A DNA stretch of 28,600 nucleotides, from IMG/VR virus record IMGVR_UViG_3300010153_000070, positions 1-28,600 of that record; one strand, 5' to 3'. The notes under the pieces are model-generated. The model was not told where the DNA came from. It saw nothing but the letters and a program-made list of their open reading frames with translations, and searched no databases. The number at the start of each line of letters is the position of its first letter. Positions within the stretch are counted from its first letter, which is position 1. Both the position numbers and the translations under genes were made by a program. Origin of the DNA: a virus. This document shows, piece after piece, positions 2,026 to 27,222 of the stretch.

Positions 2026-2550
2026 ATGTTATCACAAAATCAATTAACAAAACTGAATAACCAACAGCAATTAAATCTTCTCAAGAAAAGGGAAGAACGC
2101 TATCACTATTATGGTATATTAACTGAATACCAGCTACATCCACCATCAATAGTAAACTCTTTAAACTATTCTAAACTTAATCCATATCAACATTTTTTAT
2201 TTAAACGTGTATTACATGGATTAAAAGTTTATAAACCTGAAGAAGTTAGAAAACTTCACTGGGATAAAAAACGTAGAATAACTAAAGTATGGAAAAGAGC
2301 TCAAAGAGAGATCAATGCATGGAAGCAAATGATTTGTAATAAGAAAATAAATCATTATCTTAGTAAAACTTTTACAGGCAAGACGGTAGAATATATCATA
2401 TCAGTACCAGTTGAAGACTTCTTAGAAGACTATCATAACACTATGACCTTCAAAGCTTTAGGTATAACGTATGAAGATGTAATACTAAAATTTATGTCAT
2501 TAGGTCTCTTGCCAAGAAACTTTTTTACAATAAAAGCTAATGGGCATTAG
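2026..2550 (+). CDS. hypothetical basic protein, 174 aa
   Basis: I do not recognise this protein. It is basic, with a Gln/Asn/Leu-rich N-terminal helix (residues 1-25) and a central Lys/Arg/Trp-rich helical stretch at about 80-110 (KLHWDKKRRITKVWKRAQRE). The second half looks alpha/beta. The basic Trp-rich segment would suit nucleic-acid binding. It overlaps the start of the HNH gene by 11 nt, so the two may be translationally coupled. Confidence 0.65.
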   Translation: MLSQNQLTKLNNQQQLNLLKKREERYHYYGILTEYQLHPPSIVNSLNYSKLNPYQHFLFKRVLHGLKVYKPEEVRKLHWDKKRRITKVWKRAQREINAWKQMICNKKINHYLSKTFTGKTVEYIISVPVEDFLEDYHNTMTFKALGITYEDVILKFMSLGLLPRNFFTIKANGH

Positions 2551-2821
2551 AAACTTTTCTAAAAAGATGCAGAAAGCAAATACAGCCTACAAGAAATTAC
2601 GTGGGCCGTATTTGCTTGAACATCCAATATGTCACGCAAAAATTAATAACTGTACAATACACTCCACAGATGTACACCACAAAAAAGGTAGAGGTGTAAA
2701 CTACTTAAATGTAGATACATGGTTGCCTGTATGTAGAAATTGTCACATGTGGATAGAAGAAAATACAGTAGAAGCAATAGAGCTAGGGTTTTCAACACCT
2801 AGAACTTATGATCAAGAATAA
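2540..2821 (+). CDS. HNH endonuclease-like protein, 93 aa
   Basis: The sequence shows a small zinc-dependent HNH fold. C31 and C38 (ICHAKINNC) with C65 and C68 (CRNCH) form a likely zinc site. The DVHHKKGRG segment supplies the paired histidines of the beta-beta-alpha-metal centre, and NYLNVDTWLPVC follows as in HNH proteins. Such short phage HNH proteins nick or cut DNA during recombination or packaging; this one lies directly before a helicase gene and far from the structural genes. I cannot tell it from a NinG-like or homing type from sequence alone. Confidence 0.75.
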   Translation: MGIRNFSKKMQKANTAYKKLRGPYLLEHPICHAKINNCTIHSTDVHHKKGRGVNYLNVDTWLPVCRNCHMWIEENTVEAIELGFSTPRTYDQE

Positions 2822-2827
2822 AATATT

Positions 2828-3931
2828 ATGAATAATAGAGAGATTGTCCAAGCTGATGCATTAGCAATAGCTATGAAAAATAAAAGATGTGGACTTGGTA
2901 TATCCATGGGTGTAGGTAAAACTAGAATTGCTATACAACATCTACATGAAAATTACCATTCACTTATAACTGCTCTAGTTGTAATACCTAAGCTATCTAT
3001 TAAAGATAGTTGGGTTGATGAACTAAGTATAAGCACTCAATACTGTGATCTATTAGATCATATAACATTTACAACATATTTATCATTAAAGAAACATAAT
3101 CCAAATGATTATGATATAGTATATCTAGATGAATGTCATTCATTACTACCAAGTCATGAAGAGTTTTTATCTAACTTCAAAGGAAAGATATTAGGTTTAA
3201 CCGGTACACCTCCAAGGAATAGGCATTCTGATAAGGGAAGGTTAGTACAAAAGTATTGTCCTATGAAATATCTATTTGATGTAGATAAAGCTACAGACTC
3301 TAAGATATTAAATGATTATCAGATCATTATACATGAGTTATCATTATCAAAACTTCCAACTTTAAAGAAAACTAATAAACAAGGAGGTCATTGGTGGACT
3401 ACAGAGTATAAAGATTATGAATATGTAACAGGAAGATGTAGAGATGCACAGACTCAAAAACAAAAACAGTTTGCTGCAATCATGAGAATGAGAGCACTGA
3501 TGGAATATAACACTAAAGAGATATATACTAAATCCTTATTAAGTAATATGAATGATAAGTGTATTATATTTGCTAACACGCAGAAACAAGCAGATAGAGT
3601 ATGTAAGCATAGTTATCATTCAACAAATAAAAAATCAGATGATAATCTAGAAATGTTTATTGACGGAAGGATTCATCAATTATCTTGTGTGTTACAATTA
3701 TCAGAAGGTGTTACAATAAAAAACCTTAAACAAGGTATTATTATGCATGCCTATGGTAATGAGAAAAAGACTGCTCAAAGGATAGGACGGTTACTAAGAC
3801 TGAATCCAACAGAACGTTCCACGTGTCATATATTATGTTATAAAGGAACACAAGATGAAAGATGGATAGCCTCTGCATTAAAAGACTTTGATGAAAATAA
3901 AATTAAATACTATAACCCTTTAAATAGATAA
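2828..3931 (+). CDS. superfamily 2 DNA/RNA helicase, 367 aa
   Basis: The helicase motifs are visible in order. Walker A is SMGVGKT (residues 26-32), motif II is DECH (101-104), motif III is LTGTPPR (124-130), and motif VI is QRIGR (317-321). The second RecA-like domain contains KCIIFANTQKQADRV. At 367 residues it is a minimal two-domain SF2 enzyme, shorter than most bacterial RecG or SNF2 types and closer to compact phage helicases such as the UvsW type. It starts 6 nt after the HNH gene. A role in branch migration, recombination or replication restart is likely from family and context. Confidence 0.85.
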   Translation: MNNREIVQADALAIAMKNKRCGLGISMGVGKTRIAIQHLHENYHSLITALVVIPKLSIKDSWVDELSISTQYCDLLDHITFTTYLSLKKHNPNDYDIVYLDECHSLLPSHEEFLSNFKGKILGLTGTPPRNRHSDKGRLVQKYCPMKYLFDVDKATDSKILNDYQIIIHELSLSKLPTLKKTNKQGGHWWTTEYKDYEYVTGRCRDAQTQKQKQFAAIMRMRALMEYNTKEIYTKSLLSNMNDKCIIFANTQKQADRVCKHSYHSTNKKSDDNLEMFIDGRIHQLSCVLQLSEGVTIKNLKQGIIMHAYGNEKKTAQRIGRLLRLNPTERSTCHILCYKGTQDERWIASALKDFDENKIKYYNPLNR

Positions 3932-5768: not shown

Positions 5769-6476
5769 ATGAAAAAATTAGATATTGATATAAATAATAT
5801 TAGAGAAAAATTAATTGAGAAACTAGAAAACTCTGGGTGGGAACCTGCATTGTCACCATTCATCAATGGATTAAGCTTTGATATTATTTTAAATAAACTA
5901 GTAACATTGGTTGAAGCTGATAGAAGATTTACACCAAAATTTAAAGAAATCCTTAACGCATTTAAAGAATGTCCATATGATGATCTTAAGGTAATAGTTA
6001 TAGGACAAGATCCATATCCACAGCTAGGAGTAGCTGACGGAATAGCATTTAGTTGTAGTAAAAAAAAGAAACCAGAAGCTTCTTTAAGATATATACTGAA
6101 GGAAACTGAAAAGGATACTAGAGATATATATCCGCCAGCATTATGTGACTTAAGACGTTGGTCTAACCAGGGCGTGCTATTGCTTAATACAGCATTTACA
6201 GTAGAGGTTAATAAAATAGGATCCCATATTGATTTATGGAAACCATTTGTAGAGTATATTTTTGATTTACTTAACAAGCATAAAAAAGATATACCTATCA
6301 TAATGATGGGAAGGAAAGCTGAAGAGTGGGAAAGATACTTAAATAACCATAAACTATATAAAGTAAGTCATCCTGCATCTGCAGCTTATAGAGGTGGAGA
6401 ATGGGATAGTCAAGATGTGTTTAATAAGGTAAATAATCACCTTGAAAAGCAAGGTAAAGATAGGATCGTATGGTAG
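5769..6476 (+). CDS. ung: uracil-DNA glycosylase, family 1
   Basis: It removes uracil from DNA by cleaving the N-glycosidic bond. The family 1 motifs are present: GQDPYP at residues 79-84 with catalytic Asp81, LLLNTAFTVE with Asn140, and HPASAA with His201. The spacing between the Asp and Asn equals that of the E. coli enzyme, and the length of 235 aa is close to its 229. One change is seen: the usual His after GQDPY is Pro84. The long N-terminal helical region is normal. It opens the main + strand replication operon. In phages this enzyme may keep the phage DNA free of uracil or help degrade host DNA; the choice is open. Confidence 0.9.
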   Translation: MKKLDIDINNIREKLIEKLENSGWEPALSPFINGLSFDIILNKLVTLVEADRRFTPKFKEILNAFKECPYDDLKVIVIGQDPYPQLGVADGIAFSCSKKKKPEASLRYILKETEKDTRDIYPPALCDLRRWSNQGVLLLNTAFTVEVNKIGSHIDLWKPFVEYIFDLLNKHKKDIPIIMMGRKAEEWERYLNNHKLYKVSHPASAAYRGGEWDSQDVFNKVNNHLEKQGKDRIVW

Positions 6477-11217: not shown

Positions 11218-11616
11218 ATGATAAAACGTAGATGGTTTATACCGGGGAATGTACCCAGTAGTAAGAATGGAAGGAGATGGACAGGTAAATACTTTATTGC
11301 TAGCAAAGCTGTAATGAATTACAGAAAAGCTACCAAAGAATATTATACTAAATATACAGAAGACTTCAAAGCTGAAGTTGCTAAACAAGAGCTACCTGTA
11401 AAAGTATCTTTTGAATTCATCAGAGGGTCTAGACATAAGTTTGATTATATTAATCCTGCACAGACAGTGCAAGATGATATGGTTAAGCACGGATGGATTG
11501 AAGATGATAATGCTGAATTTATTATACCTGCCTTTACTCAATATACATATGATAAAAAAAATCCAGGAGTATGGATAGAATTAATAATAGAAAATAATGA
11601 AGAAGAAAAAATCTAG
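11218..11616 (+). CDS. rusA: RusA-type Holliday junction resolvase, 132 aa
   Basis: It cuts four-way DNA junctions. The RusA pattern is clear: IPGNVPSSKNGRR near the N-terminus, then FDYINPAQTVQDDMVKHGWI with Asp76 and Asp86/87, and EDDNAEF with Asp96/97. These are the acidic residues that bind Mg2+ in this family. Length is close to E. coli RusA (120 aa). It starts 2 nt after the primase and overlaps the next gene by 20 nt. Confidence 0.85.
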   Translation: MIKRRWFIPGNVPSSKNGRRWTGKYFIASKAVMNYRKATKEYYTKYTEDFKAEVAKQELPVKVSFEFIRGSRHKFDYINPAQTVQDDMVKHGWIEDDNAEFIIPAFTQYTYDKKNPGVWIELIIENNEEEKI

Positions 11617-11968
11617 AGAAATAATAACAGTTGATGAATTCTTTACACTAAGAGATATGTTGAGTGGTAATGAAGAAGATGCAGCAGTTGCACTAGAAAT
11701 ATATAAGAATAAATATGGATTGGATCAAAAAATATTAAACAGACTAATGTGTAAAGCTCTAAACTTTGAAGATAGAGTTAAGTTCTCAATTGCTGTAAAG
11801 TATTCTTTTGAAATTGGGGGAAGACAGTTTACAACTAATCCTCTAGATTCTGATATGATTACAACCCGGATATTTGCTTATATAGATCATTACAAACTAG
11901 ATGATATCTATAAAGAAATACTAAATAAAATATCAAATAAAAATAAAGATGATACAAATACAAGATAG
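11597..11968 (+). CDS. hypothetical protein, 123 aa
   Basis: I do not recognise this protein. It begins with a Lys-rich stretch and is otherwise mostly helical (FFTLRDMLSGNEEDAAVALEIY...LDQKILNRLMCKAL), ending in a polar Lys/Asn/Asp-rich tail. It overlaps RusA by 20 nt and the metallopeptidase/VWA gene by 20 nt. It may belong functionally with the MoxR/VWA block that follows. Confidence 0.6.
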   Translation: MKKKKSREIITVDEFFTLRDMLSGNEEDAAVALEIYKNKYGLDQKILNRLMCKALNFEDRVKFSIAVKYSFEIGGRQFTTNPLDSDMITTRIFAYIDHYKLDDIYKEILNKISNKNKDDTNTR

Positions 11969-13109
11969 TGTTGCTAAAACAACCAAAACATTAATATTTA
12001 CAGAGCCTTTTTATGGGCTCTTTTTAATTGGTATCAACAAGAAATATAGTTTACAAATTCCAACAGCTGGAGTAAGTAAACATAATGTTGGTGTTCAATT
12101 AACTATAAATCCTGAATTCTACATGGAGCTAAGCCCTGATCATAGGTTAGGACTTATTAAACATGAACTATTACACTTAGCTTTTGGACATTTAGTTTTA
12201 AGAACTAGTTTTTCTGATAAAAGGTTATTCAATATTGCTGCAGATCTAGAGATCAATCAGTATATAGGGTCTAAATATTTACCAGAGGGCGGATTATTAC
12301 TGGAAAGTTTTCCTGAATTAAATCTTCCTAAAAAGGCAGGTACCACTGAATACTATAGACTTTTAAAAGAAGCTCAACAAGATGGGACATCTCCAACATT
12401 AAATTCATTAATGAGTGAAATGGATGGTTCTACACCATATTGTCATACTTCATGGGATGAGTTCAATGAGTTATCAGAAGCAGATAAAAAGTTGGTTCAA
12501 AAACAAATTGAACATCAACTAAAAGAAAGTGCTGAACAAACTATAAAAAAATGTGGTAGCGTTCCAGGAGAACTTTCAGATATTATAGATGCATTATTAA
12601 ATCTTGAACCTCCTAAATTTGATTGGAAAGGTTACCTTAGAAGATTTGTTGGAAACTCTAGTATTATATTTACTAAAAAATTAAGACGTAAATATAATAA
12701 AAGATATAGTGGTAATCCGGGATTAAAGATAAAACATAAAAATCATATTTTAGTGGGTGTAGATACATCCGGTTCAGTTAATAATGATGAACTTAAAGAA
12801 TTTCATAGTGAATTATGCCATATGCATAAGACTGGACATAAAATAACAGTAGCACAATGTGATACTAGCTTGGGTTCTGTAAAAGAATTCAATCCCAAAA
12901 GAGAATGGGAAATACATGGCCGTGGTGGGACAAGCTTTCAACCGGTCATAGATCATTATAATCAAAAAGGGTTTTATACAGCCCTTATATATTTAACAGA
13001 TGGTGAAGCATATACTCCAGAGAACTGCCCAAGAAATACCTTATGGTGTTTAAGTAGCATCTCTGAGATGAATAATGAGTTACCAGGAAAAGTAATAAAA
13101 TTTAATTAA
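11949..13109 (+). CDS. metallopeptidase-like protein with VWA-like domain (DUF2201 / COG3864 type), 386 aa
   Basis: Two domains are visible. The N-terminal one has KHELLHLAFGH: His72, Glu73, His76 and His81, a zinc metallopeptidase-type HExxH-x4-H motif. The C-terminal one has the MIDAS-like DTSGS (272-276), then RGGTSFQPV, then LTDGE with Asp351, as in von Willebrand factor A-like domains. This is the order of COG3864 proteins, which are normally encoded beside a MoxR-type AAA ATPase, as here: the next gene starts 7 nt downstream. In bacteria such pairs act as chaperone-like remodelling systems. The substrate in this phage is unknown. Confidence 0.8.
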   Translation: MIQIQDSVAKTTKTLIFTEPFYGLFLIGINKKYSLQIPTAGVSKHNVGVQLTINPEFYMELSPDHRLGLIKHELLHLAFGHLVLRTSFSDKRLFNIAADLEINQYIGSKYLPEGGLLLESFPELNLPKKAGTTEYYRLLKEAQQDGTSPTLNSLMSEMDGSTPYCHTSWDEFNELSEADKKLVQKQIEHQLKESAEQTIKKCGSVPGELSDIIDALLNLEPPKFDWKGYLRRFVGNSSIIFTKKLRRKYNKRYSGNPGLKIKHKNHILVGVDTSGSVNNDELKEFHSELCHMHKTGHKITVAQCDTSLGSVKEFNPKREWEIHGRGGTSFQPVIDHYNQKGFYTALIYLTDGEAYTPENCPRNTLWCLSSISEMNNELPGKVIKFN

Positions 13110-13116
13110 TAAAAAA

Positions 13117-14388
13117 ATGGCACAAGTAAATTTAAATGTAACGGAATTAAAAGGATTCATTAATCATATCATAGATAACAATAGATTCTTACAGAAAGAT
13201 AATAAGAATTCAGTATCTATTGAGGTAGTAGGTGAATCAGGAATAGGTAAAACTTCTAGTATTCTAGAACTAGCAGAAGAAAATAATTTAAACTTTGTAA
13301 AGCTAAACCTTGCACAAATTGAAGAGTTAGGAGATCTAGTAGGATTCCCTGTAAGACAATTTCAAATGTATAAGGAAAAAACCATAACAAATAAGATAGA
13401 TAACTTAGCTATGGTAACTGCTACACAAAGAGCTGGTGCTAGTAGTCTAGCTAATCTAACCACAAGTACTACAACAAAAAAAGTTGGTATGTGGGTAGAT
13501 GAACTTGCCGTACAAGAGTATCTAAAGAATGGATATAAAATGACCGGTAAGAACAGAATGTCTTATTGTGCTCCTGAATGGATTGCAGATACAAAAGAAG
13601 GAGGCATTCTATTACTAGATGACTGGAACAGAGCTGATGTAAGATTTATACAAGCAGTAATGGAATTAGTGGATAGACAAACTTATATCTCATGGAAGTT
13701 ACCTAAAGATTGGCATATAATTTTAACTGCTAATCCAGATAATGGAGATTATATGGTTAACTCTATTGACTCTGCACAAAAAACTAGATATGTAACAGCT
13801 AATCTAAAATTTGATGTTAATGTATGGGCCCAATGGGCAGAGGGTGCAGGTATTGATACTAGATGTATAAACTTCTTACTATTAAATCCAGAGTTAGTAA
13901 CTCAAGAAACTAATGCAAGATCTATTACTACATTCTTTAACGCTATATCTAGCTTTGAATCTTTTGAAGATAATCTTCCTATGATCCAAATGATTGGGGA
14001 AGGTAGTGTAGGAGATGCATTTGCATCTATGTTCACTACATTCATTAATAATAAGCTGGATAAACTTGTTACTCCTAAAGATTTATTGACACATGATAAT
14101 GAGCAATATATTTTAGGAGAACTACGTAGTTGTATAGGTAAAGATGATACATATCGTGCAGATATTGCATCTACATTAGCTACAAGACTAGGTAACTATG
14201 CAGTAGTATATTCTAAAGAGAATACTATTAATCAGAAAATTACAGATAGAGTTAAAGCTCTTTGTACTCTAGATTATTTTACTAATGATTTACAGTACTT
14301 AATAGTAAGAACTATATTCACTGGAAATAAAGCAAAGTTTAATAAATTAATGATGATCCCTGAGATTATTAAAATGACAATGAAATAA
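13117..14388 (+). CDS. MoxR-type AAA+ ATPase, 423 aa
   Basis: Walker A is GESGIGKTS (39-47). Walker B is ILLLDDWNRAD (164-174), where the second Asp takes the place of the usual Glu. Sensor 1 lies in LTANPDNG (203-210). An insertion between Walker A and B contains KKVGMWVDELAVQEYL. The C-terminal ~180 residues are helical, with an AAA lid-like part. Adjacent to the DUF2201 protein it forms the common MoxR/VWA pair, in which the ATPase ring remodels proteins using the VWA partner as adaptor. The leader TTAATAAAAAAATG is A-rich. Confidence 0.82.
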   Translation: MAQVNLNVTELKGFINHIIDNNRFLQKDNKNSVSIEVVGESGIGKTSSILELAEENNLNFVKLNLAQIEELGDLVGFPVRQFQMYKEKTITNKIDNLAMVTATQRAGASSLANLTTSTTTKKVGMWVDELAVQEYLKNGYKMTGKNRMSYCAPEWIADTKEGGILLLDDWNRADVRFIQAVMELVDRQTYISWKLPKDWHIILTANPDNGDYMVNSIDSAQKTRYVTANLKFDVNVWAQWAEGAGIDTRCINFLLLNPELVTQETNARSITTFFNAISSFESFEDNLPMIQMIGEGSVGDAFASMFTTFINNKLDKLVTPKDLLTHDNEQYILGELRSCIGKDDTYRADIASTLATRLGNYAVVYSKENTINQKITDRVKALCTLDYFTNDLQYLIVRTIFTGNKAKFNKLMMIPEIIKMTMK

Positions 14389-14389
14389 A

Positions 14390-15439
14390 ATGGCAAATAA
14401 AACAGTATATCAAGATTTTGATACTGATGCCTTGGATTATTTTGGACTTGGAACGGATCCCATACACGGGGTCCTTTCCAATAACTCTATTCAAGATGTA
14501 TTAGTAACTCAAGATGTAACAACTTTTAATAACATAAATGAAATATTAGCAAAGCCAACTATTCAAGGAAACCAATTAAGTAATTATAAAAAAGCATTTA
14601 TATTACCTAATTGCAATGTTTCTGCAGATAGAATGAAGGCTGCTCTTAAAGAACATCAAATAACTGTAACCAATGACTATGAGAAAGCTGACGTAATAGT
14701 GGGTCATCTTGCTATAGATGGAGGGACATTAGAAAATGGAATGAATATTCCTAGTAGTATCATGAAATGTAAATTATGGAATTATGAATTAGCTGAGGGG
14801 TTATATTCTGCACCTGCTCCATCAGGCATTCTTACTCTAATTCAAAACTCTAATAGACATGTAATACTAACAAGGAAAATACTAGATACCATATCTTATT
14901 CTAACTTTGAACTAGGAGAAAATCTATATGATGTTTGGATGCTTACAGGGTTGGCTATTAACTTAGCTTGGAAAATTCAAATAGACAACTTAGCAGTTGT
15001 AGATGTTGAAACTGTCTTGCATAGTTCAGCAAATAAAGTTATCTTAGATGAAGAATTATTGGGAGATTTAAGAATACAACATAGTTCTTATAATACTGAT
15101 GATAAAGAAATATTAGGAAAGATTGTTCCTACTATAGATTATACTCAAAACTATCATTTGTTATGGCAATTTTCACAAGATTGTTATAATATAGCAAGTA
15201 GATATAATAGAGATAAGGACATGCAATATTGGATTGGAGAGTCTAGGTTTGAGCAATTTACTCATATGGGTGCTGAAGAGATGATACTATGGTTAGAAGA
15301 AAATGATTTGCTTAATACAAAATCATTTAAATATTTAGAACCAATAGTAAGAAGTGAGATAAGAATACACAACAGAGATCTTTATACTTTTAAAGTATCT
15401 GTTAAGAAAGAATATAAAAAATATTTAAAAAATGTATAA
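14390..15439 (+). CDS. uncharacterised protein of the MoxR/VWA block, 349 aa
   Basis: No known domain is identified. A segment at about residues 66-108 reads KKAFILPNCNVSADRMKAAL and then ITVTNDYEKADVIVGH, which looks like a small Rossmann or BRCT-like unit: strand, helix, strand, then a conserved K-A-D-V. A similar segment is seen in the next gene. The C-terminal half is helical and Tyr/Asn-rich. It starts 1 nt after the MoxR gene and overlaps the next by 8 nt, so it is very likely part of the same functional unit. Confidence 0.65.
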   Translation: MANKTVYQDFDTDALDYFGLGTDPIHGVLSNNSIQDVLVTQDVTTFNNINEILAKPTIQGNQLSNYKKAFILPNCNVSADRMKAALKEHQITVTNDYEKADVIVGHLAIDGGTLENGMNIPSSIMKCKLWNYELAEGLYSAPAPSGILTLIQNSNRHVILTRKILDTISYSNFELGENLYDVWMLTGLAINLAWKIQIDNLAVVDVETVLHSSANKVILDEELLGDLRIQHSSYNTDDKEILGKIVPTIDYTQNYHLLWQFSQDCYNIASRYNRDKDMQYWIGESRFEQFTHMGAEEMILWLEENDLLNTKSFKYLEPIVRSEIRIHNRDLYTFKVSVKKEYKKYLKNV

Positions 15440-16601
15440 AAATTTTGAAGTAGAATTAGACATAAAAGACCCTGAAAAGTGGAAAGATGGTCATCTAACA
15501 GCTGATGCTATCAATATAAAAGAAAATGGTATATTTTTATTAAATACTGATTCGTGGTATTTAACAACAGAAGATCTAAATATGTTAGGGCTTAATGTTA
15601 GTAATGATACCTTAGATCTACAAGGGAAATCATTATATAGATACCCTAAATTAAGTTTACCTAGACAAAAGGTAGATTTATTAAAAGGATCTTATGATGT
15701 AAAAATAACCAGAAATCAAGATAAAGCGGATATTCATGTAGTATCTAAAAAACTTATAGAAAGTTTATTAGAATTTAAATGGACAGCTTCTCATACCAAA
15801 AGACAATTTTATGCTCTTATGATAGATCTTAGAGAAAATGATTTAATCTCTGAGGAATTCATAACAGAAGTACGTAAGATTTTAGAAGAAAGTGATGGCT
15901 CAGATTATTTTAGACTAAATGTCATTTATTGTTATAAAGATGCTACTAAAGTTGAGCAGAAACTTATAACTAAGTGTGAAGGTGTTGTTGAAAATCATCA
16001 GAAGCTTACTAAACAAAGGTCTGCTGTTATAGAAAAGGATAAGGATATTGAAATATATAATAGTTTATCAACTACCTCTGCTCAAATAGTTCTTGATACA
16101 GAAGTTAATAAAAAGATTAGTGAAAGCTTAACTACCTTAACAGAGGATGATTATCAAAACTTGGTAAATCAAATTAATAGTGGTAACATTGAAGATAGAA
16201 GTTTAGCTTTGGAATTAATGGCTAATTCTAACTATGAAGACAGCTTTGATATATTAGCTGCTCTATATTTCTTTAACTTTGATAAATGTAAGTGGACTAA
16301 TAATTGGAATACAGTTAATATTAAAGGTTTTAGAAATAGATTTAAAGTTTTTGAAGGCGGCTGTCAGGAAAGTCATGGTCATACTTATAGTAGATTTATA
16401 AGAAATTTAGTAAAAGAAGAAAAATTAACTGAATTTATAGTAGACTTGTGTAGAGAAAAAGTACATAAGAAAGTATTTCCAATGGCAGGTATATTTAAAG
16501 ATGAAGGATTTTTTGTTAAATTAGAAGATATTCATATATCTGATAAATATAAAGACAAAATTAAAGTAGATAACGTATCAAATGAATACATATGCACATA
16601 G
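15432..16601 (+). CDS. uncharacterised protein of the MoxR/VWA block, 389 aa, possible paralogue of the gene before it
   Basis: No known domain is identified. Near residue 75-105 it reads LSLPRQKVDLLKGSYDVKIT followed by NQDKADIHVVS, echoing the LP...V...ITVTNDYEKADVIVG segment of the 349-aa protein. Further on, the stretch NIEDRSLALELMANSNYEDS followed by a hydrophobic helix resembles the second-half pattern of its neighbour (NTDDKEILGKIVPTIDYTQN). Residues ~165-220 may form a coiled coil. It overlaps the nuclease gene by 10 nt. Confidence 0.65.
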   Translation: MYKNFEVELDIKDPEKWKDGHLTADAINIKENGIFLLNTDSWYLTTEDLNMLGLNVSNDTLDLQGKSLYRYPKLSLPRQKVDLLKGSYDVKITRNQDKADIHVVSKKLIESLLEFKWTASHTKRQFYALMIDLRENDLISEEFITEVRKILEESDGSDYFRLNVIYCYKDATKVEQKLITKCEGVVENHQKLTKQRSAVIEKDKDIEIYNSLSTTSAQIVLDTEVNKKISESLTTLTEDDYQNLVNQINSGNIEDRSLALELMANSNYEDSFDILAALYFFNFDKCKWTNNWNTVNIKGFRNRFKVFEGGCQESHGHTYSRFIRNLVKEEKLTEFIVDLCREKVHKKVFPMAGIFKDEGFFVKLEDIHISDKYKDKIKVDNVSNEYICT

Positions 16602-17584
16602 ATAAAAAGAAAGAGGAAGAGTTTTATTCAAATAAAGACTTTTGTTTTAGCTATTCCTCTTTAAATAAATTATTATTTTCTCCTTATTTATTTTATAAGG
16701 ATTATATACTACAGGATCGTGAGATTAAAACAGATAAGCATTTAATAGAAGGGAAGCTATTACATTGTATGATGTTTGAACCAGAAAACTTTGATAAGAA
16801 ATTTGAGCTGGTTCCTGAAAAACTCCCTAGTGATAATATACGTAAAGTACTTAAAGATATGTCTCATCATACAGATGTAGAAACACTTGCAGAGTGTGAA
16901 GACTTTATTATATTAGACTCACTAAAGTCTATGAATCTATATCAAACTTTAAAAGCTGATGAAGCTAGAGTAAAGAAAATAAAAACTCAAGAGGCAGAAA
17001 TATATTGGAAGTTTTTAAATAATCAAGATAAAGATGTAATAGATAGAGATACATTTGAAAGAGTTGGTGTAAGTATAACTTATCTCAAAAATAATGAGGA
17101 GGTATTAGATTTACTAGTAAATGATGCACCAACAGACTTTGACTTAGATCCTATCTCAACATATAAAGAAGAATATCTAAAGTCAGAGTTAGTTGACTGT
17201 GAGTTTGGTCTACATGGTTATGTAGATTTTTATAAAGTTGATAGTGATAAGAAAGAAGTTATCATATGTGATTTAAAGACAACCGGTAAAACTGTTGTAG
17301 ACTTTACAGAAACAATTGATTTCTATAATTATTGGTTACAAGCGGCTATTTATATGAAGCTTGTATATGATACACTGGGTGATGATAGAGATGAATATAA
17401 TATACAATTTAAATTTATTGTTATAGATAAATATTATCAAGTGTATGTATTTGATGTATCAGACAACACTATAAATGATTGGGCCAATGGTTTAAACCAA
17501 GTTATTAATACTGCAAAATTTCATTATAATAGCAGAAATTATTCATTACCAATGAATATGTTAGTAAATAGAGTTAAATTATAG
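16592..17584 (+). CDS. PD-(D/E)XK nuclease, RecB/exonuclease VIII-like, 330 aa
   Basis: The N-terminal motif FSYSSLNKLLFSPYLFYKDY and the following EGKLLHCMMFEP match the start of phage PD-(D/E)XK exonucleases, where S.S.L..SP...Y precedes a G..H helix. The catalytic core is LHGYVDFYKV with Asp212 and CDLKTTGK with Asp227 and Lys229. A Q-rich helix (YNYWLQAAIYMKLV) follows, as expected for the QxxxY motif. With the Sak4-like and SSB-like proteins it would form a phage end-resection and annealing set. Confidence 0.8.
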   Translation: MHIDKKKEEEFYSNKDFCFSYSSLNKLLFSPYLFYKDYILQDREIKTDKHLIEGKLLHCMMFEPENFDKKFELVPEKLPSDNIRKVLKDMSHHTDVETLAECEDFIILDSLKSMNLYQTLKADEARVKKIKTQEAEIYWKFLNNQDKDVIDRDTFERVGVSITYLKNNEEVLDLLVNDAPTDFDLDPISTYKEEYLKSELVDCEFGLHGYVDFYKVDSDKKEVIICDLKTTGKTVVDFTETIDFYNYWLQAAIYMKLVYDTLGDDRDEYNIQFKFIVIDKYYQVYVFDVSDNTINDWANGLNQVINTAKFHYNSRNYSLPMNMLVNRVKL

Positions 17585-18615: not shown

Positions 18616-18645
18616 AAAAGAAGCCTATTGACGTAGGCTTTTTTT
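18616..18645 (+). terminator. intrinsic terminator before the polymerase gene
   Basis: AAGCCTA pairs with TAGGCTT across a 6-nt loop. The stem is extended by one G-T and four A-T pairs, and the right arm is a run of seven T. It ends the transcription block that finishes with the 138-aa gene. Confidence 0.85.
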
Positions 18646-20968: not shown

Positions 20969-21862
20969 ATGGGATACACAAAACCAAAAGAAACAACCAG
21001 GTGGCATTTAGAAAGTGCGGCCCTACCTAACCATGGTAAAACCTACACGGTAATATCACACCGAGAAGTGATAGATAATACATATAAATTACTAGCAGAT
21101 AGTGGATTTATGGTCTCTAGAGAATCATATAGAGCCAGTAAGGACGCTAATGTTGCACAGGGAATATATCATATATATCCACAGTCAACTACTGATATAG
21201 AAATTGAACAAGAAAAAGAACTAGGAATGATGTTTGCTTGGACAAATTCTTATGATAAGTCTAAAAGCTTTGAGTGTGCTATTGGAGCATATGTTCAAGT
21301 TTGTTACAATGGTATGTTATCCGGGGACATGATGAACTATAAAAGAAAACATAGATGGTCTGCCTCAAGAGATATACACATACAAATGTCTGATCAAATA
21401 AAAAATGGTGAGAAATACTATAAAAGACTAATTAAAGATAAAGATCTATTAAAAACTATCACTGTTGATTGTAGAAAAGCATCTGAATTAGCTGGGCGTT
21501 TATTTATTGAAGAGGATCTATTAGATTCTCAACAATTATCTTGCGTTAAAAAAGAGTTAGAGAAAGCTTCTTATAATTATGGTGTAGCAGATGACTCTGC
21601 ATGGGCCTTTTATAATCATGTTACGCATGCATTAAAGAAAGCTCATCCAAGAGAGTGGTTAAATGATCAGCAGAACTTTCATGACTTTATCACAATGGAA
21701 CTAACAGGGTCCCCATCTACTAAGCCTATGTTTGAAAAGCCTGGTGAGTATATAGATCTAGGAGACAAGTCTCAATTAGAAATAGATTTAGTACATGATA
21801 CCGTGGTAGAAGTAGATGAAGAACAATTAATGAGAGAATTTGATATTGAGCTAGGCTTATGA
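20969..21862 (+). CDS. DUF932-like phage protein, 297 aa
   Basis: The sequence follows the DUF932 (TIGR03299) outline: an N-terminal alpha/beta part with TYTVISHREVIDNTYKLLAD, a middle with the core AIGAYVQVCYNGMLSGDMMN followed by KRKHRW, then a long helical part. In this family the C-N-G motif followed by basic residues is conserved. Such proteins are common in phages and plasmids near replication genes, and their function is unknown. Its stop overlaps the start of a 25-aa peptide gene (ATGATGA). Confidence 0.55.
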   Translation: MGYTKPKETTRWHLESAALPNHGKTYTVISHREVIDNTYKLLADSGFMVSRESYRASKDANVAQGIYHIYPQSTTDIEIEQEKELGMMFAWTNSYDKSKSFECAIGAYVQVCYNGMLSGDMMNYKRKHRWSASRDIHIQMSDQIKNGEKYYKRLIKDKDLLKTITVDCRKASELAGRLFIEEDLLDSQQLSCVKKELEKASYNYGVADDSAWAFYNHVTHALKKAHPREWLNDQQNFHDFITMELTGSPSTKPMFEKPGEYIDLGDKSQLEIDLVHDTVVEVDEEQLMREFDIELGL

Positions 21863-23589: not shown

Positions 23590-26500
23590 CTATGAATACA
23601 TAGTAATGTTTATTGCTACTTGTGTTGAACTTATGGTACCGTTTGATGTATGTAATGATACTATAAATCCTGTAGTACTTTTTGATCTAAGTTCTGCATA
23701 GAGTAATCCTGTACCTGATGGAATTTCTAGATTTACATTTATCAAATAATTAGCATTAGGTCTTGTTGCATTTAATGTTACCGTATATAAATTACTGGCA
23801 AAAGATACAGTATTATTACCACTAAAGATTGAATCTCCTTGATTTAATATACCACTTTGATTGAAAGAAAAATAATCAGAAGGTCCTGGATCAGAAACAA
23901 CTAAATGTTTAACTTCAGTATATTTTACTGTATTAGCGTCACTTACATCTTGATATAGTATTAAATCAGAACCATTAGGAATAGATCCAGATGCATTAGT
24001 TGCAGATTGAATTACAGAATCTGTTCCTATATAGTCTACTTCAATATTATTTGCGTTGGTTACTAAACCAGCTCCTCCAGTAACATTTAAAGTTAATGCT
24101 CCTGTAGTGTTACCACCTGCTTCAGAACATCCAGTTCCTGCAGTTAGACTTGTCACTATAGGTAATGCACTAATAGCAGTTCTCTTAACTGCATTATTTG
24201 CACTAGTATCATTAAATAGTACGTGATCAGAAGGATCAGCTGTACCAGTTCCTGGAACTAAAAGCATATTACTTGCTCCCGTATAATTTATTCCTATAGT
24301 AGGATTAACTGTACTTGAACCAGCTTCAAGTTCTAGACCTTCACCTGGAGTTACAGATGTAACTGTACCAGCTGGTGCTGCTGAACCTGGGGTAATTGCT
24401 GTAATATGTCCTGATGCATTATATGTTATAGATGCAGGATAAGCTGCAGTACCTGCTGTAATAGAAGCAGTATGATTAACTGTGACAACGTTTGTATTAG
24501 GTGTTCCGGATATTTCAGAAACTACTGTTGATAAACCAGTTCCACCAGCAATGTCAAATTTCTCATCAGTATTTACTACAACTGTATTTCCTGTATCTGC
24601 TTGTAAGTCAAATCCATTATAAAAACCTGGCATTAAATAAATTTGTTGTCTCTTAAGTGTATTGTTATCAGAAGAATCATTAAACATATACCAATCAAGA
24701 GTAGCTGGGTTTGACTCCACAGCTCTTGCCATAATAAGGTTATCAGTACCTGCAATGTCTACACCAATTGTAATAGTATCTGTGGTGGAAGTATTTACTG
24801 TTAGACCACCAAACGTTGAAGCTTGATTTGCAGCAGCAACTGTAAGGGTACCACCTAAATTAATAGTTTGTGGAGTACTTCCATCATTTACAATAAAGCT
24901 ACCAGCAGCAAAGAAGTTAGGAAGAGTATTCTTTTTAATAGTATCACTATCACTGGCATCATTAAACCAAATAGAATCTGCATCTGTTGGAACCGCAGTA
25001 GCTGCTTCTAGTATAGCATTATCTGCACCAGCGTAATCTACATTAACAATTGGACTACTTGCTGTACCTGTTACAGTAATACCTGTTCCTGCATTAACAG
25101 TGGTACTACCGCCACCTCCAGCTGGAACTTGCCATGTACCATCAGCTCTTAAGAATGTAGTTGATTGAGCAGATCCTGATGAATCTGGAACATATCCTAC
25201 TACATTACCACCACCAAATTTATTCATACTAAGGTTAAGATTACTTCCTGAAATGCTTCCTGCAAAAGGTGTAGTTTGAGCTGTAGTTAAAGATAAATTT
25301 AATGTAGTTAAATTATTAAATGGTAAGTTAGATATTAATGTTTTCTTTATAGTATTACTACCACTCACATCAGAGAGAATCATATAGTCACTACCAGCTG
25401 CAGTTGAGATTGCAGCATTTACTTCTATAAAGTTATCAGTTCCTACAGTATCTAAACTTATAGTAACTGGATTAGGATTAGCACTAGCTGCAGTTACGTT
25501 TAATCCAGCATCCCCTACAAAGTTTATTGTTTCCCCACTACTTATAGTTACCGCTGAGCCACCGTCTCCTTTAATATCAAAACCACTAAATCCTCCTGCA
25601 CCAACAATAGATGCTATAGTTGCACGCTTAACAGTATTATCTGAAAGATCATTGAATATCATCATATCATCAGCCGCAACTGGTGTTGCAGTGGCTGTCT
25701 CTAATATCATATTATCAGCTCCTGCGTAGTCTACTGCTACTGTTACTGTAGGTCCTGAACCGTTAGTAACTGTGATACCTGGTCCTTCTACAACTGATGT
25801 TACAGTACCAGCTCCTGCATTTTTCCATTCAGTACCTGAAGCGGTAGAACTTAACATTTGTCCCGTGGTACCTGGTGCGTTATTACTATCATAGAATGCA
25901 CCTGTAATTCTAGCATTACCTGAAACATGTAATTTTTGTGATGGTGCAGTAGCCATATTAATACCTACTCCTCCATCTTGAATATTTATAGCAGTAGTGG
26001 TTGATCCCATCTGGGCCTGTATGAAACGTAATGCTGAAGAGCCTTGAGCTGCACTATTTACTCCAATTTGTTGTATTGTATTTTTAACAGCTGCTGAACC
26101 TAAACCATCTTCAAATAATATTTGACCAGTAACAGCAGTTGCATCATTTACAGAAGAGACTATTCTTACATTTGTTGATGCATCTTGTGGATTTTGGACA
26201 TGTAAAGTCTGGCCACTTGGACTTGCTGGAACAGCTCCTATAGCTAAACAATCATTTGAATTATGCCAGTATAAATTTGCATCACTGCTTAAAGCACTAG
26301 TTGATGACCAAAAAGCTAGTCTTGTTGCTACACCACTACCTGTTACAACGTTCATACTAGATACTAAGTCTGCAACTTGTACTCTTTTATTTTGAGCAGC
26401 AGAAGAATCATATATAAGTAGTTCATCTGCACCTTGTACAGCTGCTCCTAGATCTACCAGAGAATGTACTGTAACACCAACTGCTATAGTACTTCCTGTA

Positions 26501-27222
26501 GAAACTACATTTCCTCCAAGCACATTATTAGTAGTAGAAGCCTGTATACTTTGATAAGCTACAGTTGTACCATTAGATACAATTAGTTGGCCTGCAGTTC
26601 CTGGAGGTGTGGCTGTTTGTAGATTACTAGAATTACCAACCCAGATATTACCATATGGAAGAGTTACAACTGGATCATCATCTGACCATAAGACTCTACC
26701 ATCAGCTAGAGATCTTAGTACTCTATTAGCAGCACCTGCAGCTGCTCCTGAAGAGTCATGTACTTTGTTATAAAGTGCTGTAAATTTAGTAGTATCACCA
26801 GAAGTACCTAAACTATTGTTTAATTTTAATACACTATCTTTATCAACTTCTAAATTATCATCAACGTTTAAGTTTCCATTAACTATAATTGAATCAGCAA
26901 CAGCATTTTGAATCATAATGCTATCCTTTATAGATGTATTTAAAGTTGCACATACACCAGAAGGATCTGTGTACATAGGAATTCTATACTTAGTTGCTGG
27001 AGTATTAGGGTCTTGTACTATTACCCCAAATAATAAATCACATCTTAGGTCTCCCCATTTAATGATAAAAGGTTCTCCTTTGGGATTATAGGCGGCCCCA
27101 GTATTTAGAAAACTATTAGAATAGATCTTAGCAAATTCAAACCAGTCTCTTTTTTTATCAAGCTTAGTTTGTTTTTTGCTTCTTTTTAGTAGGCCTAATA
27201 CCTCTTGTAAGTAAATACTCAT
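23590..27222 (-). CDS. large repetitive tail fibre / receptor-binding protein, 1210 aa
   Basis: The N-terminal ~65 residues (SIYLQEVLGLLKRSKK...) look like a helical virion anchor. Most of the rest is Ser/Thr/Gly/Ala/Asn-rich beta structure typical of phage fibres. A repeat of about 45 residues occurs six or seven times, with the core VDYAGADN, then D..MIFNDLSDN..KR..I. Between the repeats lie strands like GTVTSV..G.GI.VT. A middle part (SQKLHVSGNARITGAFYDS) resembles segments seen in tail spikes. The last ~95 residues have a different composition (LNQGDSIFSGNNTVSFASN; AELRSKSTTGFIVSL) and may be a globular receptor-binding tip. No chaperone domain or peptidase is seen. Confidence 0.85.
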   Translation of the reverse strand: MSIYLQEVLGLLKRSKKQTKLDKKRDWFEFAKIYSNSFLNTGAAYNPKGEPFIIKWGDLRCDLLFGVIVQDPNTPATKYRIPMYTDPSGVCATLNTSIKDSIMIQNAVADSIIVNGNLNVDDNLEVDKDSVLKLNNSLGTSGDTTKFTALYNKVHDSSGAAAGAANRVLRSLADGRVLWSDDDPVVTLPYGNIWVGNSSNLQTATPPGTAGQLIVSNGTTVAYQSIQASTTNNVLGGNVVSTGSTIAVGVTVHSLVDLGAAVQGADELLIYDSSAAQNKRVQVADLVSSMNVVTGSGVATRLAFWSSTSALSSDANLYWHNSNDCLAIGAVPASPSGQTLHVQNPQDASTNVRIVSSVNDATAVTGQILFEDGLGSAAVKNTIQQIGVNSAAQGSSALRFIQAQMGSTTTAINIQDGGVGINMATAPSQKLHVSGNARITGAFYDSNNAPGTTGQMLSSTASGTEWKNAGAGTVTSVVEGPGITVTNGSGPTVTVAVDYAGADNMILETATATPVAADDMMIFNDLSDNTVKRATIASIVGAGGFSGFDIKGDGGSAVTISSGETINFVGDAGLNVTAASANPNPVTISLDTVGTDNFIEVNAAISTAAGSDYMILSDVSGSNTIKKTLISNLPFNNLTTLNLSLTTAQTTPFAGSISGSNLNLSMNKFGGGNVVGYVPDSSGSAQSTTFLRADGTWQVPAGGGGSTTVNAGTGITVTGTASSPIVNVDYAGADNAILEAATAVPTDADSIWFNDASDSDTIKKNTLPNFFAAGSFIVNDGSTPQTINLGGTLTVAAANQASTFGGLTVNTSTTDTITIGVDIAGTDNLIMARAVESNPATLDWYMFNDSSDNNTLKRQQIYLMPGFYNGFDLQADTGNTVVVNTDEKFDIAGGTGLSTVVSEISGTPNTNVVTVNHTASITAGTAAYPASITYNASGHITAITPGSAAPAGTVTSVTPGEGLELEAGSSTVNPTIGINYTGASNMLLVPGTGTADPSDHVLFNDTSANNAVKRTAISALPIVTSLTAGTGCSEAGGNTTGALTLNVTGGAGLVTNANNIEVDYIGTDSVIQSATNASGSIPNGSDLILYQDVSDANTVKYTEVKHLVVSDPGPSDYFSFNQSGILNQGDSIFSGNNTVSFASNLYTVTLNATRPNANYLINVNLEIPSGTGLLYAELRSKSTTGFIVSLHTSNGTISSTQVAINITMYS
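23900..26470 (-). repeat. protein-level tandem repeats within the tail fibre
   Basis: Repeats with the pattern V-D-x-x-G-x-D-N then F-N-D-x-S-D-N-x-x-K-R appear at about 24020, 24280, 24750, 25030, 25450 and 25725, with a divergent copy near 26430. They alternate between spacings of roughly 90 and 140-160 residues, which suggests two kinds of spacer between them. Confidence 0.7.

Follow-up and report, generated by a model that had tools for sequence, protein, structure and literature searches.

A phage MoxR-type ATPase and metallopeptidase-VWA protein linked to paralogous partner proteins among recombination genes

The 28,600-nucleotide stretch of viral DNA analysed here (the window; positions 1 to 28,600 of IMG/VR record IMGVR_UViG_3300010153_000070) carries a cassette of four plus-strand genes at 11949-16601, which encode a metallopeptidase-VWA protein (VMP), a MoxR/midasin-type AAA+ ATPase (AAA) and two large proteins, P3 and P4. 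As partners of AAA and VMP, P3 and P4 are a new, previously undescribed component: in the marine, largely uncultured and crAss-related lineage of about 115 kb phages to which the window belongs, either P3 alone (clade B) or P3 together with its paralog P4 (clade A) is strictly linked to the ATPase and the metallopeptidase-VWA protein. We propose that P3 and P4 serve as scaffold or client of an AAA-VMP machine.

Linkage and conservation of the cassette

All four open reading frames are intact and lie where the original prediction had placed them: VMP at 11949-13109 (386 residues), AAA at 13117-14388 (423 residues), P3 at 14390-15439 (349 residues), directly 3' of AAA, and P4 at 15432-16601 (389 residues). 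That prediction had also described a COG3864-type protein with HELLH-x4-H and DTSGS motifs, a MoxR-type ATPase and two large partners of no known family that follow with no gap, all between a RusA gene and a PD-(D/E)XK nuclease gene, and the analyses below bear out each of these points. Two features are added to this layout, the paralogy of P3 and P4 and a short stretch that they share with ORF123, a small protein encoded at 11597-11968 on the plus strand, which overlaps VMP by 20 nucleotides.

Scans of IMG/VR seeded on P3, VMP or P4 recovered several hundred loci, whose counts are not independent because some contigs were fetched repeatedly, and linkage was scored in placements with enough flanking sequence to show the neighbour. 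AAA lay immediately 5' of P3 in 199 of 207 P3-seeded placements and, in the others, a short distance upstream of it; VMP was upstream in 203 of 204, and P3 was immediately 5' of P4 in 79 of 80 P4-seeded placements; the exceptions reflected longer gaps, broken frames or tandem P4. Spacing was tight, with median gaps of 9 nucleotides between VMP and AAA, 1 between AAA and P3, and -4 between P3 and P4 (155-202 loci for the latter two). Within 12 records of 60-116 kb P3 was single-copy, the one additional weak match being the P4 gene. The original prediction had named in advance two observations that would count against it, a lack of co-occurrence across phages and degenerate motifs in related copies; within this lineage we found near-exceptionless linkage, and motifs that are intact and near-invariant.

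AAA and VMP evolve like the helicase, annealing protein and polymerase (median identity 85.6% and 76.5%, respectively, compared to 89.6% for DnaB, 85.8% for Sak4 and 78.2% for the polymerase), while P4 (32.5%) and ORF123 (41% where detected), the variable parts, evolve fast. One contig from a faecal 'phage' (L236) was excluded, its VWA-MoxR genes looking bacterial.

Predicted activities of the ATPase and the metallopeptidase-VWA protein

VMP matched both DUF2201 families in Pfam above cut-off (PF13203, DUF2201_N, 1.4e-17; PF09967, DUF2201 VWA-like, 1.3e-14), and we therefore assign it a COG3864 architecture, with a predicted N-terminal zinc metallopeptidase domain of the HExxH type fused to a predicted C-terminal VWA domain with a complete metal ion-dependent adhesion site (MIDAS; DTSGS...GGT...TDGE). 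HELLH-x4-H (HELLHLAFGH) occupies residues 72-81 and DTSGS residues 272-276. Among 145 distinct relatives, HExxH..FGH was retained in 143, DTSxS and GRGGT in all 145, and TDGE in 143. Searches at E<=1e-5 found matches to VMP in 316 phage records. VMP also matches phrog_1314, and we rejected the label 'HNH endonuclease' of this PHROG family because the Pfam matches and motifs indicate DUF2201. The same label is attached to this protein in many RefSeq phage records (N4, LIT1-like, RaK2 and others), and judged by sequence this naming of the family looks like a widespread misannotation.

AAA carries a Walker A motif (GESGIGKT), a Walker B motif (LLLDDWNR) and a sensor motif (LTANPD); among 136 distinct sequences, Walker A and TANPD were present in all 136 and DDWNR in 135. 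Matches to the PHROG ATPase family 1297 (phrog_1297, 4.7e-36) and, by profile against PDB, to midasin, a MIDAS-associated AAA protein (best match, 8.8e-9), support its placement in the MoxR/midasin clade; Pfam AAA models gave sub-threshold matches only. The usual catalytic Walker B glutamate (DE) is missing, aspartate being found in its position. Since the homologous gp24 of phage N4 differs in keeping DE, we read the Glu-to-Asp change as divergence within the family, and as far as seen it appears to be specific to this lineage.

P3 and P4 as paralogs with predicted BRCT-like cores

Neither P3 nor P4 matched a family in Pfam, PHROG, NCBIfam or PADLOC, and tblastn searches of 50,697 phage records found no relative; relaxing the cut-off to E=10 for P4 and for a divergent P3 did not change this. 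Nor did we recognise a catalytic domain in either protein using Pfam, PHROG and NCBIfam. Single-sequence BLASTP gave no link between the two (E 0.18), and profiles alone revealed their kinship: hhalign aligned the P3 and P4 profiles with 98.8% probability, and by parts with 97% for the N-terminal and 98.4% for the C-terminal portions, the middle being without a match, whereas four unrelated control profiles each gave <1%. These comparisons indicate distant paralogy between P3 and P4. ORF123 has about 40-50 residues that look like the first part of the helical C-terminal region in both proteins (hhalign, 88% with P4 and 73% with P3). In one related locus, L358:2926-5095, P4 is duplicated in tandem.

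AlphaFold2 produced confident models of P3 and P4 (predicted local distance difference test, pLDDT, of 90.0 and 90.5, respectively). Structure comparison matched residues 62-231 of the P4 model to BRCT domains, with PARP1 as the best match (Z 7.4, root-mean-square deviation 2.3 over 76 residues), and the top ten matches were all BRCT or BRCT-like domains; the BRCT-like core is split by an insert of about 90 residues, and residues 232-309 match armadillo/HEAT repeats. The P3 model showed the same pair of folds with weaker matches. In Foldseek, BRCT matches reached probabilities of 0.92-0.95 at E >0.1. P3 and P4 thus likely combine a BRCT-like core with an armadillo/HEAT-like C-terminus, and they would constitute two protein families with predicted BRCT-like cores to be named. 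Most known examples of the BRCT fold come from DNA repair proteins of cells. A structure search of viral models (BFVD) identified P3-like proteins in the crAss-like virus ctYsL76, in an uncultured tailed phage and in Podoviridae ctz6O13, the last with two copies (E ~1e-6 to 1e-5); the partner family may therefore extend outside this lineage, and so may its duplication.

Recombination enzymes are exchanged around a constant core

The 5' flank of the cassette encodes a RusA-type Holliday-junction resolvase (11218-11616, plus strand; phrog_1682, 6.9e-21; PF05866) and the 3' flank a PD-(D/E)XK exonuclease (16592-17584, plus strand; PF12705; phrog_412, exonuclease VIII). In clade A, the gene order is DnaB, Sak4, a possible single-stranded DNA-binding protein (SSB), primase, RusA, ORF123, VMP, AAA, P3, P4, PD-(D/E)XK exonuclease, two small genes, a terminator-like hairpin and DNA polymerase. 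The hairpin, found in the window by a pattern scan at 18616-18645 between the cassette gene block and the polymerase gene, has a folding energy of -14.2 kcal/mol (z -2.9). In clade B, primase and an SbcD-like nuclease are followed by a Holliday-junction resolvase and often by a spore-photoproduct-lyase-like protein; VMP, AAA and P3 come next, and then a 5'-3' exonuclease. P4 was absent from the six clade B records. The clade B resolvase belongs to another PHROG family (phrog_190) than RusA, the 5'-3' exonuclease is assigned by sub-cutoff matches to PF02739/PF01367, and neither was ever found in one locus with RusA or the PD-(D/E)XK exonuclease. Comparison of the two gene orders therefore shows a resolvase slot and an exonuclease slot filled by different families, with VMP-AAA-P3 constant between them, and this swap of neighbours around a constant core is the strongest lead to function.

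The spore-photoproduct-lyase-like protein (PF20903, 2.4e-26) is encoded at L034:4371-5222, and about 120 such open reading frames occur in related loci near the replication block; none was seen in the window.

Relation to known systems

Table 3 of PMC4193335 lists gp24 and gp25 of N4 as core genes of N4-like phages (Schitoviridae) with no known function. Both are homologous by profile to the window proteins (hhalign, 91% for AAA and 99% for VMP) and share the same MIDAS and HExxH motifs, but in N4 the order is reversed, with AAA before VMP, neither P3 nor P4 lies beside the pair, and no P4 occurs anywhere in the genome. In the searched parts of PMC11879866 we found no knockdown of gp24 or gp25. 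In group 2.2 jumbo phages, a MoxR-vWA-metallopeptidase pair has been described and assigned a proposed role in virion assembly (PMC7824862, sections on the pair); it too consists of two genes, the vWA protein carrying the peptidase as an N-terminal fusion, and it differs in this proposed role, in its genomic setting (RaK2), and in that those sections mention no BRCT or ARM partners. An AAA-vWA pair also lies in the replication/accessory module of halovirus Hardycor1 (PMC7911831). P3/P4-like partners are not mentioned for the N4, jumbo-phage or Hardycor1 pairs in the parts of these three articles that deal with them, and a literature search that combined phage, MoxR and BRCT found no paper. Since the known pairs are reported without such partners, the cassette is best described as a known motor pair with new partners in a new and informative setting. 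The suggestion in the original prediction of an undescribed system thus stands for P3 and P4 and falls for the pair itself, which corresponds to N4 gp24/gp25, is represented by VMP in the 316 phage records given above and is treated for jumbo phages in PMC7824862. A third gene, of 353 residues in Moorella phage MTATph1 and of 669 in Alteromonas phage AD45-P1, also adjoins the pair, and we rejected both as P3/P4 relatives, neither having a profile match.

Among bacterial systems, the ternary MoxR-vWA systems found in multicellular bacteria (VMAP/iSTAND; PMC7159879) resemble the cassette in that their MoxR-vWA core comes with an obligate third protein and the order is fixed, and differ in that the third protein is VMAP or an inactive STAND protein and the vWA protein bears variable effector domains. 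In searches against Pfam, NCBIfam and PADLOC, which did not extend to VMAP profiles, P3 and P4 gave only noise and hence no likeness to these or to effector domains. Like the cassette, NorQ-NorD, CbbQ-CbbO and RavA-ViaA pair a MoxR ring with a MIDAS-bearing VWA protein that remodels a dedicated partner, but their clients are cellular and non-viral. None of these three is known to have a fused peptidase domain.

We found no demonstrated function for MoxR-VWA-peptidase pairs, although they are core in Schitoviridae and present in jumbo phages. In the lineage described here, the pair is tied to a defined third component and has recombination enzymes as its neighbours even where the enzymes themselves are swapped. 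This yields a hypothesis on the substrate that can be tested, for a machine that is widespread and still an orphan.

Proposed function and alternatives

Our reading, which we hold tentatively as a quite possible one, is that the cassette encodes a single ATP-driven remodelling and proteolysis machine that acts at phage recombination and replication protein-DNA complexes, with P3 (together with P4) as its dedicated scaffold. Strict linkage recovered from separate seeds, tight spacing, intact motifs, core-gene-like conservation, recombination-enzyme neighbours, and the paralogy and predicted folds of P3 and P4 all speak for it. Linkage, motifs and paralogy are observed and the folds predicted, whereas assembly, target and order of action are inferred as follows. 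The VWA protein of NorQ-NorD rests on the ATPase ring, and its MIDAS is needed for the target and not for NorQ binding (PMC9976466). By analogy with systems of this type, AAA would assemble as a hexameric ring, which the VWA domain of VMP would plug while its MIDAS grips the target; ATP turnover would reshape that target and the N-terminal peptidase of VMP could cut it. Judging from their predicted architecture, P3 and P4 would bring the machine to its site. Gene context suggests that this site would be recombination or replication complexes on DNA, and the machine would therefore assemble, recycle or clear proteins, for example the resolvase, the exonuclease, the SSB or annealing protein, or parts of a stalled replisome. 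Remodelling of the phage replisome, one of the roles first suggested for the cassette, is thus plausible and strengthened by the recombination-gene context, with a putative target. A narrower version, in which P3 and P4 would detect stalled forks or recombination structures, the AAA-VWA motor would unfold DNA-stuck proteins and the metallopeptidase would cut them, as in eukaryotic Spartan/Wss1 with Cdc48, seems to us improbable.

Several points weigh against this reading. Our searches found no experiment on any phage member, and the ATPase activity of AAA is not assured because the catalytic Walker B glutamate is replaced by aspartate. The BRCT matches are at the level of fold, with Foldseek E >0.05 and a best Z of 7.4 that lies below the tool's caution level of 8; P3 and P4 gave no BRCT match in Pfam at E<=1, and P4 no PDB profile match at E<=10. 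Elsewhere, the pair lies near virion or chaperone genes (Hsp70 and virion proteins in RaK2, Hsp20 and a virion protein in S-TIM66). Gene neighbourhood itself likely indicates co-expression rather than substrate.

The placement of the RaK2 and S-TIM66 pairs beside heat-shock and virion genes fits a different account, in which AAA and VMP act as a virion-assembly chaperone that folds or processes structural proteins and P3 and P4 are assembly adaptors. Virion assembly is the role proposed for the jumbo-phage pairs in the relevant sections of PMC7824862, which also cite tail assembly in Acidianus two-tailed virus as a precedent, and roseophage RPP1 encodes virion proteins near its gp24/gp25 homologues, according to the corresponding part of PMC4193335. 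In a 114.8 kb relative, however, the cassette lies within the replication block, on the strand opposite to that of the genes for large terminase, portal and major head protein; recombination enzymes fill the neighbouring slots in both clades, and N4 gp24/gp25 are middle rather than late genes (PMC4193335). We regard this account as unlikely. MoxR-VWA pairs are often encoded together with their client. NorQD and its nitric oxide reductase cNOR are one example (PMC9976466), and P3 likewise directly follows AAA, so that P3 and P4 might instead be the dedicated client, matured or activated by AAA-VMP and themselves doing the DNA work. This appears rather unlikely to us, as P3 and P4 have no recognised catalytic domain and P4, at a median identity of 32.5%, evolves far faster than expected for a catalytic core.

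A machine for host takeover or counter-defence that dismantles a host complex would be consistent with the fast evolution of P4 and ORF123, with the absence of P4 from one clade, and with the presence of MoxR-VWA systems in bacterial conflict systems (PMC7159879). Yet AAA and VMP match helicase and polymerase in their slow evolution, a point against such a role, the cassette occurs among recombination genes in both clades seen, and a defence library gave no match beyond a weak BrxF P-loop that we treat as noise. The original prediction had listed countering of host defence among the possible roles; our results disfavour it, and we consider a host-directed machine very improbable.

Phage lineage and other features of the window

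The closest match to the DNA polymerase of the window was that of the crAss-like Cellulophaga phage phi14:2. In the 114.8 kb relative (G002), the terminase, portal and major head protein genes lie on the strand opposite the replication block; its terminase shares 25-27% with Crassvirales and Flavobacterium phages Fpv3/FpV4, and its capsid protein 23-28% with Leptolyngbya phage Lbo-JY46, csAssE-Sib and Cellulophaga phage phi17:2. These sequence comparisons, made on the relative, indicate crAss-like affinity of the terminase and head protein. VMP, AAA, P3 and P4 were not detected in ten crAss-like or related reference genomes, and for VMP this absence is informative because its profile finds divergent copies elsewhere. 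Sequence matches in bacterial genome collections comprised three contigs of metagenome-assembled genomes, one of 114.7 kb, which are probably binned phage contigs. The cassette start codons (11597-16592) are preceded by A-rich stretches and no Shine-Dalgarno sequence, a pattern that would suit a host among the Bacteroidota.

Rfam and tRNA scans of the window gave no matches. On the minus strand, 23590-27222 holds a gene for 1210 residues with no Pfam or PHROG match, which was present in 1 of 62 related loci compared, many being too short to reach it. The replication block includes a uracil-DNA glycosylase superfamily protein (5769-6476; PF03167, 1.6e-12), a DUF932 protein is encoded downstream of the DNA polymerase (20969-21862; PF06067, 1.3e-14), and at 2540-3931 an HNH endonuclease-like gene precedes a gene for a ResIII/Helicase_C helicase.

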